Part shown: positions 41,946-61,805 of the stretch, piece by piece
How positions within the stretch are numbered: the first letter of the stretch is position 1
How the letters are laid out: each line of letters begins with the position of its first letter
Notes under the pieces: model-generated
Database searches by the model: none
Told to the model about the DNA's origin: nothing
The model's input: only the letters and a program-made list of their open reading frames with translations
Source: Cytophagales bacterium
GTDB taxonomy: Bacteria; Bacteroidota; Bacteroidia; Cytophagales; Thermoflexibacteraceae
NCBI GenBank assembly: GCA_013299115.1
Contig: JAAFKA010000010.1
Location: 62,001-126,000, forward strand
Length of the DNA stretch: 64,000 nucleotides
Direction: 5' to 3'
Position numbers and translations under genes: made by a program

Positions 41946-43016
41946 ATGGAAAAATCAGTTTTATTAGTGGCAGATGATAATCCTGAAAATTTGAGGGTTA
42001 TCAAAGATATTTTGAATCAGGAGGGAGATAATTATACACTGATGACTGTTCCCAATGGCAGAGTGCTGGTAGAAGTAGCCAAAAAGAAAAAACCTAATTT
42101 GATTATTACAGACTGGGAAATGCCCGAAATGGACGGTTTAGAGGCTACCAAAGCCATAAAACAAGACCCTGAAATTAAAGATATTCCTATTTTGATGTAC
42201 ACAGGGATTATGACTTCGCCCAAAAACTTGCAAACGGCTTTGGCAGCAGGAGCAGTGGACTTTATTCGCAAGCCCTTAGATGCAACGGAATTGTTAGCAA
42301 GAGTACAATCTATGTTGCTGTTGGGAGATTCTTACCGCCAAATCAAAGCCCAAAAAGAGGAAATAGAAAGAGAACGTAAAAAATCAGATGAGTTGTTGCT
42401 CAATATTTTGCCCGAAGAAGTGGCAGAGGAACTGAAACAAAAAGGATTTGCCACACCCAAACATTACGAATTGGTTTCTGTTTTGTTTACAGACCTCAAA
42501 GGCTTCACAAGTATTGCAGAAAGACTATCAGCAGAGGAAATTATCCAAAAACTAAATTATTGTTTTCAGGCTTTTGACCAAATTGTGCAAAAATACGACT
42601 TAGAAAAAATCAAAACCATAGGTGATGCCTATATGTGTGCAGGGGGCATACCCAATGCAAATACAACAAATCCTGTGGACATTGTAAGAGCAGCTTTAGA
42701 GATGCAGGTATTTATGGAGGAGTGGAAAAAAGAAGCAAAAGCAAAAGGCGAGGCTGTGTTCGAACTCCGATTAGGTATCAATACTGGTAATGTAGTAGCT
42801 GGAGTCATTGGAACAAGGAAATTTGCTTATGATATTTGGGGAGATGCTGTCAATCTGGCAAGTCGCATGGAATCTTCGGGTGAAGTGGGCAAAGTCAATA
42901 TTTCAGGTGCTACCTACGAATTGGTAAAAGATTATTTCCACTGTGTGTATAGAGGCAAAATAGAAGCCAAAAACAAAGGCGAAATAGATATGTATTTTGT
43001 AGAAGGGACAAAGTAA
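41946..43016 (+). CDS. Response regulator with adenylate cyclase output domain
   Basis: The 356-residue soluble protein has a REC domain (1-120, phosphoacceptor Asp56 in LIITDWEMPEMDG, Lys109 in IRKP) joined by a coiled coil (about 128-160) to a class III nucleotide cyclase domain. Metal aspartates are Asp183 (VLFTDLKGFTS) and Asp227 (KIKTIGDAYM). The substrate residues, a lysine in KIKTIGD and Asp296 in YDIWGD, specify ATP, and the transition-state residues Asn303 and Arg307 (AVNLASRMES) are all present. It should be an active homodimeric adenylate cyclase controlled by a histidine kinase not in this window. Confidence 0.92.
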   Translation: MEKSVLLVADDNPENLRVIKDILNQEGDNYTLMTVPNGRVLVEVAKKKKPNLIITDWEMPEMDGLEATKAIKQDPEIKDIPILMYTGIMTSPKNLQTALAAGAVDFIRKPLDATELLARVQSMLLLGDSYRQIKAQKEEIERERKKSDELLLNILPEEVAEELKQKGFATPKHYELVSVLFTDLKGFTSIAERLSAEEIIQKLNYCFQAFDQIVQKYDLEKIKTIGDAYMCAGGIPNANTTNPVDIVRAALEMQVFMEEWKKEAKAKGEAVFELRLGINTGNVVAGVIGTRKFAYDIWGDAVNLASRMESSGEVGKVNISGATYELVKDYFHCVYRGKIEAKNKGEIDMYFVEGTK

Positions 43017-53544: not shown

Positions 53545-53649
53545 ACATTTTTGGACTTCCGCAAGAAATCTAATAATTTTATCTGGAAAATCTATAAAAT
53601 TTGGATTGCAAATATAAAATAATTAACTTGTTTGCCTAAATTTGCTTGT

Positions 53650-55656: not shown

Positions 55657-55736
55657 GGTAGATTTTATCTATGAATGAGCTATTGCAATAGGATTTTCAC
55701 TACTTTTATTTATCTTGCCGTTTGAAAATTAGTATT

Positions 55737-56810
55737 ATGCAACTAAAAAGTATTTCTATAAAAAAATTTCAGAGCATCAAAGAAACTGCTATCCTAAATA
55801 TTCCAGCCAATAATCAGTGGATTTTTATGACAGGAGAAAATGGCAAGGGGAAAACCAACCTTTTGCAAGCAATAGCTTTGGGTCTAATGGGCTATGAAAA
55901 TCATACCTATTCCTTTGCCAAAAAACGGAGTATAGAGATTATTAGCACCTTGCATAAAACAGCTACAACCGAAACAAGCAAACTAACAACTTCTACAAAG
56001 CCTTTGGTGGCGATGGCTGCTTATGGTTCTTCTCGCCAAGACATAGCCCCCTATGACAATGACGAAGAGGCATTAAATAGTCCTACCTATAGCTTGTTCA
56101 GAACCAGAGGCTACTTAAAAAGTATAGAATTAGAATTAGCCAAATGGTATTTGAAACGGGAAATTAGCAATGAATTTAAAGAAAAATATGACAATGTGGT
56201 GGCGGTATTAAAAAAATTACTACCAAATATTGCAGAAATTACAATAGATATAAACAATAAAGACAAAGTAAAATATACAGAACAAGACGAAAATGGAAAA
56301 ACTTATCCACCTGTTTATTTTGCACAGTTGGCATCGGGTTTCAAGTCTATTATCAGCATTGTTGGCGATATGATTATTCGGTTTTTTGAGCAAACAAAAA
56401 CAAATAATCCAGCAAAGTTTGAAGGTATTGTTATTATAGATGAATTGGATTTGCATTTACACCCTAATTTGCAGATGCAATTACCGACCTTGCTATCAAC
56501 AATTTTTCCACATATTCAATTTATTGTATCTACCCACAGCCCTATTCCTTTGTTGGGTGCAGTTCGCAATTCTGTATTTATCAACGTAACAAGAAATGCA
56601 AAAGATGGCACAATGGTTAGCAACCTTGACCACATAGATATTTTTAATCTTACGCCAAATACGATTTTGTCTTCGCCTTTGTTTGAATTTAATACCATTT
56701 ATCCGAAAAATCACAAACCCGAAGACAACATAAGAACAGAAGATTTATATGATGAGGTAAAACTCAATGATTTTTTGCGAAAAAGATTAGAAAAATTTGT
56801 AAATTCTTAG
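55737..56810 (+). CDS. AAA/ABC-type ATPase, Septu PtuA-like
   Basis: The 357-residue protein is called from ATG 55737 (MQLKSISIKKFQSIKETAIL); a TTG at 55722 is possible. It is an SMC/RecF-like ATPase: Walker A GENGKGKT (33-40), Gln-loop region LVAMAAYGSSRQ, ABC-signature-like QLASGFKSII (197-206), Walker B IVIIDELDLHLHP (231-243) and the switch histidine in STHSPIPLLG. An ATPase of this type followed within 3 nt by an HNH nuclease is the layout of Septu anti-phage systems (PtuA+PtuB). The function is inferred from this pairing. Confidence 0.82.
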   Translation: MQLKSISIKKFQSIKETAILNIPANNQWIFMTGENGKGKTNLLQAIALGLMGYENHTYSFAKKRSIEIISTLHKTATTETSKLTTSTKPLVAMAAYGSSRQDIAPYDNDEEALNSPTYSLFRTRGYLKSIELELAKWYLKREISNEFKEKYDNVVAVLKKLLPNIAEITIDINNKDKVKYTEQDENGKTYPPVYFAQLASGFKSIISIVGDMIIRFFEQTKTNNPAKFEGIVIIDELDLHLHPNLQMQLPTLLSTIFPHIQFIVSTHSPIPLLGAVRNSVFINVTRNAKDGTMVSNLDHIDIFNLTPNTILSSPLFEFNTIYPKNHKPEDNIRTEDLYDEVKLNDFLRKRLEKFVNS

Positions 56811-56813
56811 GCT

Positions 56814-57719
56814 ATGGTAAAAGTAGAAAAAGACTTAAAAGTTATTCCGAATAGTTTGCAAGATGCTGATTGCAAGCATAATTTGATAATTATTCTTGCA
56901 GCAGGTAATGGGGAAGCTATCAATGACAAGATTTACAAAGGTATCAAGAATAATACAAACTCAGATGGTTTTGGAGATGTGCAACAAGCCCTAAAAGACT
57001 TGTATCGCAATAAATGTGCGTATTGTGAAAGCCCCGAATTTAACCCACAGATAGAGCATTATAGACCGAAAAAGGGCTTAATGACTAAAAATAGTGCTTT
57101 GAAATGGAAAAAAGTAGAAACTCACAAAGGTTATTATTGGTTATGTTATGATTGGAGTAATTTAGTGCCTTCGTGTGCAAGTTGCAACGGAATAGGGCGA
57201 GGCAAAGATGTAAAATTTCCATTGTTGAACGAAAGCAAACGGATTTTTAAGCCAACTGTTGATAACAATGCTATTGCTCTGAACGAAATAGAAAAACCCT
57301 ATTTGTTACACCCCGAAATTGACGAACCTAAAAACTTCTTTCGTTTTGATGACAAAGGTAATATTTTTGGGACAGACACAGCAGGCAGAGGGGAAATGAC
57401 CATAGAAATTTGTTGGCTACGGGCTAACGAAACTTTGAGATTTAACAGAAAAGACCAAGTTTTTGATTACTATACAGATGCCCTAATTGCAGCACTAAAT
57501 TTGTCTGATGTTGTTGCTAAACAGGGTTTAATCAAAAAAATTATTGAAAAATTATATAGAGATTTACACAACCCTGAAAAATCTTTTCGGTTGTATCGTT
57601 GGTATTTCTATACACATTTCAAAGAGTTTTTGGCTATTTCTTTGCTCCCACAACCAGAAATAGATTTTATTCTGGGGATTTATGAGGAGGTTTATGAAGA
57701 AAATAGTGAAGCAAAATGA
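56814..57719 (+). CDS. HNH endonuclease, Septu PtuB-like
   Basis: The 301-residue protein has a zinc-bound HNH motif: RNKCAYCES (Cys68, Cys71), then IEHYRPKKG with His82, then YDWSNLVPSCASCNGIGRGK (Asn116, Cys121, Cys124). This is the McrA/TIGR02646-like form used by PtuB effectors. The C-terminal half (about 150-301) is helical and has no motif I recognise. It starts 3 nt after the ATPase stop. By Septu logic the ATPase holds the nuclease until infection, after which DNA is cut; no experiment supports this here. Confidence 0.82.
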   Translation: MVKVEKDLKVIPNSLQDADCKHNLIIILAAGNGEAINDKIYKGIKNNTNSDGFGDVQQALKDLYRNKCAYCESPEFNPQIEHYRPKKGLMTKNSALKWKKVETHKGYYWLCYDWSNLVPSCASCNGIGRGKDVKFPLLNESKRIFKPTVDNNAIALNEIEKPYLLHPEIDEPKNFFRFDDKGNIFGTDTAGRGEMTIEICWLRANETLRFNRKDQVFDYYTDALIAALNLSDVVAKQGLIKKIIEKLYRDLHNPEKSFRLYRWYFYTHFKEFLAISLLPQPEIDFILGIYEEVYEENSEAK

Positions 57720-60329: not shown

Positions 60330-60375
60330 TTTTTGTGTGAAATATTTTTTAAAAATTTAGTTATTACTAAACTTT

Positions 60376-60771
60376 ATGCCTAAATTTGAACTCCAAAAGA
60401 TAGATGCTATTGTTGGCAAGCAAGCATTTTATAAATTGCTGAAAGATGGTAATTGTGAGTTTGACGAATTTGTTGCACAAATTAAAGCAGAAGGAAGTTT
60501 TGATAAAGAAATTACAAAAATTTATGCCTTAATGCAGCAAATAGTAGAACTCAAAACTTTGCCACAAGAAAAATTTAAAGAACTCCCAAATCCGAAATCA
60601 GAGATTAAGGAGTATGAAATCAAAACCAAACATTTAAGGGTTTATTTATTTCATCAGGCAAATACAGGCAAAATAATTGTTACAGGTGGCAAAAAAACTA
60701 CACAAGACCAAGACATTGCACATTTCAGAGAAACCAAAAAGAAGTATTTGGAAAACTTAAAAACTAAATAA
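60376..60771 (+). CDS. HigB/Gp49-like type II toxin
   Basis: The 131-residue protein has a RelE-superfamily C-terminal core: EYEIKTKHLRVYLFHQANTG, KIIVTGGKKTTQDQDIAHFR and a terminal helix KKKYLENLK. This is the pattern of phage-derived Gp49/HigB toxins, which are ribosome-dependent or free mRNA interferases. The N-terminal 55 residues (EFDEFVAQIKAEGSFDKEIT) are helical. The Xre-type gene 28 nt downstream fits the 'toxin first' order of higBA operons. Toxin activity is inferred. Confidence 0.82.
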   Translation: MPKFELQKIDAIVGKQAFYKLLKDGNCEFDEFVAQIKAEGSFDKEITKIYALMQQIVELKTLPQEKFKELPNPKSEIKEYEIKTKHLRVYLFHQANTGKIIVTGGKKTTQDQDIAHFRETKKKYLENLKTK

Positions 60772-60799
60772 ACAAAATAGCTTAAACAAAACTAAAAAA

Positions 60800-61153
60800 A
60801 TGACAAGAGAAGAACTTTTGCAATCAGAAGAATACTGGCTGACAAGCATACAAACGGATTTGTTTAACGAATTGCATAGCTACATGGAAACTCACAACCT
60901 TAATCGTACACAATTAGCTGCACATTTGGGCGTAAGCAAGGGCTATGTAACGCAAGTTTTGAGTGGAGATTTTGACCATAGACTTTCAAAATTGATAGAA
61001 CTTTCTCTGGCTATTGGCAAAGTTCCTGTTTTGCAGTTTAAAAATTTGGCTGAGGTTTTGCAAAAAGAAAAGCAAACCAAATTCACAATCCTTTTCAATA
61101 AATCTTTCAATAGTTTTAATACAGAAAAGACACCAACACTAAAAATAGCTTAA
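60800..61153 (+). CDS. Xre/HTH antitoxin (HigA-like) with C-terminal extension
   Basis: The 117-residue protein has a Xre-type HTH at about residues 34-75 (NRTQLAAHLGVSKGYVTQVL followed by SGDFDHRLSKLIELSLAIGK). About 40 further residues (LQFKNLAEVLQKEKQTKFTI, then LFNKSFNSFNT) are hydrophobic and aromatic. In toxin-antitoxin-chaperone systems such a tail is the chaperone-addiction segment; here that reading rests on the SecB-like gene downstream. The antitoxin should also repress its own operon. Confidence 0.85.
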   Translation: MTREELLQSEEYWLTSIQTDLFNELHSYMETHNLNRTQLAAHLGVSKGYVTQVLSGDFDHRLSKLIELSLAIGKVPVLQFKNLAEVLQKEKQTKFTILFNKSFNSFNTEKTPTLKIA

Positions 61154-61165
61154 AACTATCGTACA

Positions 61166-61573
61166 ATGAATGTAGATATATCCTTAGCAAGTATTGAGGA
61201 AACAGAATTTTTTTATAAAAACTCTATTCTCAATGTTGCCAATTTTGATGCAGATGTCCTACAAATGCACGTTAATTTGCTAAAAAATATTGATTTAAGC
61301 CAAAACTTTGTAAATATTCTTACCATTGTAACTTATACTTACAATGAGCAGGAAGCACTACGTTTGCAAGTCAAGATTGATTTTGCTTTGCCACAACTGC
61401 CCGAAATTATTACACAAAACGCAAATGGCTGGCAACTTCCCGAAGCCATTGATACCGTCTTACAAAGCATTAGTTACTCTACTGTTCGTGGTTTTTTGGC
61501 TGCCAAAACGCAAGGTTTGCCACTTCATAAGTTTTATATGCCGATTGTAGACCCACAACAGTTTGTGAATTAA
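61166..61573 (+). CDS. Probable SecB-like chaperone of a toxin-antitoxin-chaperone module
   Basis: The 135-residue protein has a central beta region (NILTIVTYTYNEQEALRLQV, then KIDFALPQLPE) and a C-terminal block SISYSTVRGFLAAKTQGLPL followed by HKFYMPIVDPQQFV. That end matches the SecB-like pattern of a Tyr/Arg helix followed by a Pro-rich strand (P-I-x-x-P), as in small chaperones that follow HigBA-type pairs. It starts 12 nt after the antitoxin stop, in the same operon. The fold assignment is from pattern memory and needs profile or structure confirmation; otherwise it would be a hypothetical protein. Confidence 0.65.
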   Translation: MNVDISLASIEETEFFYKNSILNVANFDADVLQMHVNLLKNIDLSQNFVNILTIVTYTYNEQEALRLQVKIDFALPQLPEIITQNANGWQLPEAIDTVLQSISYSTVRGFLAAKTQGLPLHKFYMPIVDPQQFVN

Positions 61574-61582
61574 GAAAAAAAT

Positions 61583-61700
61583 AATTGTTTAGGTACGTTG
61601 GCAATGGTCGCAGCCCTTGACAATCGTACCACGTTTTTTATACGATTGTCAAGGGCTGTGACCATTGCCAACCCATAAAAAGTGGAGTACCTAAACAGTT
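61583..61700. repeat. 118-nt two-stem hairpin after the TAC-like operon
   Basis: Outer 14-nt arms AATTGTTTAGGTAC (61583-61596) and GTACCTAAACAGTT (61687-61700) have one G-T type mismatch. Inner 32-nt arms (61597-61628 and 61641-61672) also have one, at GGTCGC/GTGACC. A 12-nt T-rich loop (61629-61640) separates the inner arms. It begins 10 nt after the chaperone-like gene ends, within the otherwise gene-free 61574-61923. Confidence 0.85.
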
Positions 61701-61805
61701 ACGAAAAAAAATAACTACCAAAACTAACAGGGGAAGTTCTTAGGAAAAACACTTTATACTTTCCAAGTTTTAAAAACTTGATAGATATTTTTGTTTTGTT
61801 TTTCG

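Follow-up and report, generated by a model that had tools for sequence, protein, structure and literature searches.

We analyzed a stretch of 64,000 nucleotides of Cytophagales bacterium DNA (the window), in which three open reading frames follow one another on the plus strand with intergenic gaps of 28 and 12 nt. We refer to the three products as T, A and C. The coordinates and the spacing given in the original prediction were confirmed. The features of the locus are as follows.

60356..60371, no strand assigned: candidate operator TTTAGTTATTACTAAA, a near-palindrome 4 nt 5' of the toxin start codon
60376..60771, plus strand: predicted toxin T, a long Gp49/HigB-like protein (131 aa) that is extended at its N terminus
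60800..61153, plus strand: predicted antitoxin A, 117 aa, with an Xre-type helix-turn-helix core in residues 1-80
61040..61150, plus strand: antitoxin tail, residues 81-117, ending TPTLKIA, a putative chaperone-binding and degradation segment
61166..61573, plus strand: putative SecB-like chaperone C, 135 aa, identified by a PDC-M64C match, its predicted fold and a profile-profile link

The hairpin that had been noticed behind the trio exists as a near-perfect structure of 120 nt (61582-61701; arms 61582-61596/61687-61701 and 61597-61628/61641-61672) with a folding z-score of -16. In this genome 103 pieces match its sequence, distributed over 41 separate places and 25 contigs. Therefore, we regard it as a dispersed repeat that adjoins the module, and rejected it as a module-specific part. 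It is also absent from the list produced by a terminator scan. On the other side of the trio, the Septu-like neighbor was confirmed by PADLOC models for PtuA (2.4e-87) and PtuB (2.3e-63) at 55722-57719; a 2.6-kb TPR/SpoIIE gene stands directly after the Septu genes, between them and the module. Describing the region as an island was only partly right, because the scanned neighbors other than Septu are the SpoIIE phosphatase and a TonB receptor at 53632. Elsewhere in the window, a protein encoded at 41946-43016 contains a domain that matches the PADLOC PycC cyclase models (2e-15).

The third protein had been called SecB-like from its sequence pattern. Residues 5-133 of C match the PADLOC model PDC-M64C (3e-9). 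Pfam returned nothing above its cut-off for this protein (best chance-like match E 0.023) and NCBIfam returned nothing. An AlphaFold2 prediction from 29 rows gave one model of pLDDT 80.3 and four of 53-57, and in the best model a long helix comes after four strands, as in SecB. SecB occupies ranks 1-9 of a Foldseek search with this model, with E values of 4e-3 and up and low TM scores of 0.3-0.4. VIA-align placed a Streptococcus protein of undescribed function on top (2o2a; Z 8.3, rmsd 4.7 over 105 residues), followed by the mycobacterial chaperone Rv1957 (Z 8.0, rmsd 2.8 over 100) and SecB entries; these three are tied by Z, and the next value drops to 5.8. The same protein from a relative with a toxin and an antitoxin of the window type (L081) was modeled with a pLDDT of 93.5. 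This model retrieves SecB by Foldseek at E 2.3e-6 and superimposes on E. coli SecB (1qyn; Z 11.7, rmsd 2.6 over 127) and on Rv1957 (Z 10.7, rmsd 3.3 over 128). A fold unrelated to SecB would have spoken against the original prediction; the predicted fold is that of SecB, modestly so for the window protein and clearly so for its relative.

Profile comparison also links the family to SecB. A family alignment of 25 rows (A1, 24 distinct proteins) matched an alignment of SecB, itself validated by retrieval of PDB SecB at 2e-11, with 88.9% over 136 columns. With the repeated row removed the score was 41.2, compared to at most 20.5 in 300 shuffles, 13.3 for the reversed alignment and less than 11 for toxin and antitoxin controls. 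A narrower alignment (A3) reached only 9% in this comparison, none of the 25 rows of A1 matched the Pfam SecB model (PF02556) at E 0.05, and searches of PDB sequences from C with one protein and two profiles found no SecB. Hence C is best described as a predicted SecB-fold chaperone that diverges from the standard SecB models and is linked to them by profile comparison and fold only. The remark that this chaperone has only about 135 residues was correct as to its length; within the family this length is ordinary (132-165 residues, not counting L029 with its over-long frame).

The toxin matches PADLOC PDC-M64B (3.8e-7) and, weakly and far below the cut-off of the model, the RelE/ParE-type NCBIfam model TIGR02683 (E 2.5e-4). 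A Pfam scan and searches of PDB sequences with T found no match, and among the 19 toxins of alignment A4 a single one matched Gp49 (PF05973), below cut-off (0.0066). A profile of four window-type toxins matched 38 of 395 genomes of the class at E 0.001, with 12 strong matches (<1e-15) including the window; among 118 relatives it matched 11, one of them a further strong match. The weak matches include toxins of about 100 aa from two-gene systems, and the two-gene relatives that were scanned are true Gp49 proteins (4/4, up to 1.8e-23 in Pfam). The 13 strong window-type toxins matched seven such two-gene toxins in profile-profile comparison with 96.8% and a score of 62.5 (best of 150 column shuffles: 17.5), a relatedness that spans about 84 columns. 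The Gp49/HigB-like character proposed for the first protein is supported in this form: T appears to be Gp49-like, as judged by profile-profile comparison only.

The antitoxin accounts for the sole Pfam match in the trio, to HTH_3 over residues 27-76 with an E value of 2.8e-4 that lies under the Pfam cut-off. It shares 43 and 37% identity with the antitoxins of two related loci (L074 and L076). Past the 80-residue core follow 37 further residues, which bears out the description of this protein as an Xre protein with an extra C-terminal tail. Across ten window-type antitoxins, of which that of the window is the shortest, the mean identity is 42.6% in the core (first 80 residues) and 12.7% in the tail. 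This pattern suggests a working DNA-binding core joined to a free tail. TAC antitoxins have an extra C-terminal chaperone-addiction region; A likewise has an extra tail, variable past a conserved core, that could bind the chaperone. Published TAC antitoxin tails show no significant similarity among one another either (PMC5105189). Across the family as a whole, the last residue is A, G, S, V or C in 53 of 67 distinct antitoxin tails (a count inflated by related rows), compared to 29 of 173 other long ORFs at the same loci (a crude background that may include frames cut by the locus end).

Upstream of the toxin gene we found a short palindromic site. All 13 window-type modules contain the palindrome TTTAGTTATAACTAAA with 12-16 of 16 positions matching, 4-14 nt 5' of the toxin start, and the window site TTTAGTTATTACTAAA retains 15 of the 16. 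A match of at least 13/16 within 40 nt of the toxin start occurs at 12 of the 13 loci, with one other such site in 84,270 positions of these loci. The consensus was taken from L120 after the sites of the window and of L074 (the locus of L118) had been viewed; the other ten rows did not contribute to it. When each row was shuffled 2000 times, the observed match was reached 0 to 37 times (worst case L116), and 4 of 5000 random stretches of the window reached 13/16. For the pattern TTTAGTWATWACTAAA, the window site is the sole exact match genome-wide; a control with the pattern reversed likewise gives one site. Since identity to the window toxin falls as low as 25% among the compared toxins, the site has been kept by selection, and it is most simply read as the putative operator of the antitoxin. 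Its conservation across modules suggests that the operon is probably self-regulated. Two loci with a window-type pair and no recognizable C (L123 and L145) also have the site, which therefore belongs to the toxin-antitoxin pair.

With the genome of the window counted in both cases, the PDC-M64C model matched 24 of 194 relatives and the A1 profile 39 of 395 sampled genomes of the class. The same model matched all 25 rows of A1, and at the window locus neighboring genes match the two PDC-M64 models, PDC-M64B by T and PDC-M64C by C. Homologues of the third gene occurring mostly without an upstream pair would have counted against a TAC module. Among 85 distinct C proteins, distinct meaning not identical so that near relatives remain, with 33 loci from the query of one subfamily and 16 of 46 profile matches from class genomes omitted because no DNA had been retrieved for them, 72 have A and T upstream, six stand alone, four are preceded by A only and three by neither. 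The count leaves out two rows with Pfam-type SecB (L040 and L043), allows for over-long C frames, and uses A and T profiles built from the family itself; before the first two adjustments it stood at 65 full trios among 87 distinct C. The loci with A only are L093 and L035, both near the locus start, L106 and L078. Those with neither are L011 (near a contig end), L066 and L067. In L067, A and C are fused in one frame of 291 aa (L067:160-1917) behind an interrupted toxin frame.

Of 32 module loci with scanned flanking ORFs, six (L091, L093, L097, L099, L105 and L110) have hsdR starting within about 65 nt after C, the hsd assignment being based on family counts. By the same counts, L091, L097 and L110 share genes on the upstream side that are consistent with hsdM and hsdS. 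A module positioned directly upstream of hsdR fits a defense role. The PADLOC candidates reportedly came from genes embedded in known defense systems. A scan of IMG/VR viral contigs with profile A2 found one relative (L114), and viral-contig scans from the window C and from two further family members gave no relative. Over the part compared, the trio of L114 reads like that of Flavobacterium subsaxonicum (L089), and the contig is possibly a prophage or a stretch of host DNA. Similarly, a trio on a short contig labeled Acholeplasmataceae reads like that of a Bacteroidales bin over the part compared (L096/L098), which is probably a binning error.

Taken as a whole, the module is best explained as a self-regulated toxin-antitoxin-chaperone operon, a reading that supports the original prediction and that we hold with considerable confidence. 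The main rival is a plain two-gene toxin-antitoxin pair accompanied by a SecB-fold passenger that does not act on A, such as a chaperone for general export or holding. All 13 strong window-type toxins are accompanied by A and 10 by C; L120 stops at the contig end, and the two remaining pairs (L123 and L145) have no recognizable third gene, so that the pair may work without C. In L123, a third gene of 154 aa that is unmatched by the C profile occupies the C position (L123:2278-2742, oriented). C without a pair is also kept in six genomes of one genus (L015, L016, L017, L018, L020 and L031). Against this stands the retention of the full trio by 72 of 85 distinct relatives, and the stand-alone copies group with L019 in a single clade of one genus (100/100), which is nested inside the TAC chaperones and has one of these as its neighbor (98/81), in a tree with 36 of 78 inner branches open and a bootstrap that had not settled. 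The stand-alone genes adjoin a gene that is TauE-like by eye, and in L019 a toxin-antitoxin pair lies between the TauE-like gene and C. The A-C fusion in one relative also speaks against a passenger. Finally, the 13 matches to Pfam-type SecB in the 118 relatives, one of them below cut-off, all lie behind small genes resembling TAC partners, a likeness judged by eye except for L037, L038 and L049, which were scanned; therefore, ordinary use of SecB was not seen in these genomes. We consider a passenger chaperone unlikely.

Gene order alone does not reveal which partner C binds, and C might be a co-antitoxin or a direct inhibitor of T rather than a chaperone of A. The SecB fold argues against this, as does the presence among its best matches of Rv1957, which has been solved with the tail peptide of its antitoxin; moreover, the part of A that would hold a chaperone site and a degradation signal, its tail, is freely variable. 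Such a role for C seems highly improbable. The window module could also be a decayed remnant that no longer works: its chaperone sits on a very long branch of the tree (2.53) and its antitoxin is the shortest of those compared. We think this very unlikely, given three open frames, tight spacing and an operator-like site with 15 of 16 positions intact.

If the module is a working TAC operon, T would probably be a ribosome-dependent mRNA-cleaving toxin like the known Gp49 toxins, which are ribosome-dependent mRNases (PMC11980606). A would neutralize T and repress the operon by binding the near-palindrome before the toxin start. Its variable tail may make A unstable or slow to fold and may bear a C-terminal degradation signal, and C, by its predicted fold, would bind this tail and keep A alive. 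Were C sequestered, for instance by a capsid or tail protein of a phage, A would be degraded and T set free, and the infected cell would stop growing. By analogy, such a phage trigger is borrowed from CmdTAC and HigBAC; likewise toxicity, chaperone dependence and phage defense are expected rather than observed properties of this module.

The closest known arrangements are the HigBAC TAC of M. tuberculosis (Rv1955-Rv1956-Rv1957) and HigBAC of E. coli, which have the same order of toxin, tailed helix-turn-helix antitoxin and SecB-fold chaperone and a toxin of the HigB/Gp49 class in common with the window module; Rv1957 is one of the best structural matches to C. A difference is that the window-family chaperones are missed by the Pfam SecB model. 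The antitoxin tails are unlike each other, as is usual among TACs (PMC5105189). HigA1 ends in the ClpX signal Val-Ala (PMC8165232), and a phage trigger for HigBAC is summarized in PMC11980606. CmdTAC (PD-T4-9) shares the TAC logic; CmdT is an ADP-ribosyltransferase, whereas the window T appears Gp49-like and has no match to the PD-T4-9 models of PADLOC. CmdA has the C terminus LAA, and ClpP degrades it once the T4 capsid protein takes the chaperone (PMC11618068). Two-gene HigBA systems (Gp49, PF05973) are related to T over about 84 columns, and A is likewise Xre-type. The toxins of seven such relatives (99-118 aa) have a shorter N-terminal part than T, and neither the C nor the SecB profiles have a match behind them. 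The window T and C match the models of PADLOC PDC-M64, an entry without description that we read here as a TAC. In open-licence literature the name PDC-M64 was not found, and no title or abstract opening described PDC-M64 as a TAC. By its logic the module is a TAC; what is new is the explanation of PDC-M64, and the kind of system itself is known.

The same genome contains two SecB genes that Pfam recognizes, both in TAC-like sets. In L037, SecB follows a HEPN protein and an antitoxin-like protein of 125 aa (L037:1065-1442, G000:C16). In L038 (L038:610-1842, G000:C23), it follows a protein that matches PD-T4-9 (CmdTAC) models and a protein of 94 aa, which makes this set CmdTAC-like. ARAGORN predicts GERTYAMAA as the tag of the host tmRNA (located at L176), and the 125-aa middle protein of L037 ends in exactly these nine residues, encoded with three synonymous DNA differences. 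YAMAA followed by a stop occurs in three places of the genome: the tmRNA, the middle gene of L037 and the middle gene of L038. In a species of the same genus that has the same tag, the homologue of the 125-aa protein ends in HTIAA.

We compared 19 PDC-M64 and 11 SecB-type antitoxin ends with the tags of their genomes where ARAGORN gave a plausible tag, leaving out G032, G061, G071, G086, G093 and G107 (no usable tag) and G200 (a tag of 8 residues). Compared with other ORF ends, both groups of antitoxin ends are more similar to the tags, strongly so for the SecB type and weakly for PDC-M64. Over the first four residues of the tag, PDC-M64 ends fit the tag of their own genome no better than those of others, and the exact match in L037 is the only one among the ends tested. 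That the C-terminal end of a TAC antitoxin can be a ClpX-type signal is known from CmdA (PMC11618068) and HigA1 (PMC8165232). Titles and abstract openings in the open-licence literature report no antitoxin with an exact host tmRNA tag.

One doubtful extension of these observations is that TAC antitoxins of this lineage borrow the host ssrA tag and that the PDC-M64 chaperones are a second SecB lineage, divergent in sequence, built around this trick. The chaperone would then hide the tag, and the toxin would in effect read the load on trans-translation and ClpXP. The LKIA end of the window antitoxin, which in register shares only its last residue with the host tag, might be a drifted form of it.

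Reading PDC-M64 as a TAC would give a mechanism to a defense candidate that databases list without one. It also suggests that Pfam recognizes only part of the antitoxin chaperones with a SecB fold. With the conserved operator-like site, the stand-alone chaperones and the exact tag on the antitoxin-like protein of the sister set, how chaperone addiction arose and is controlled becomes accessible to direct tests.
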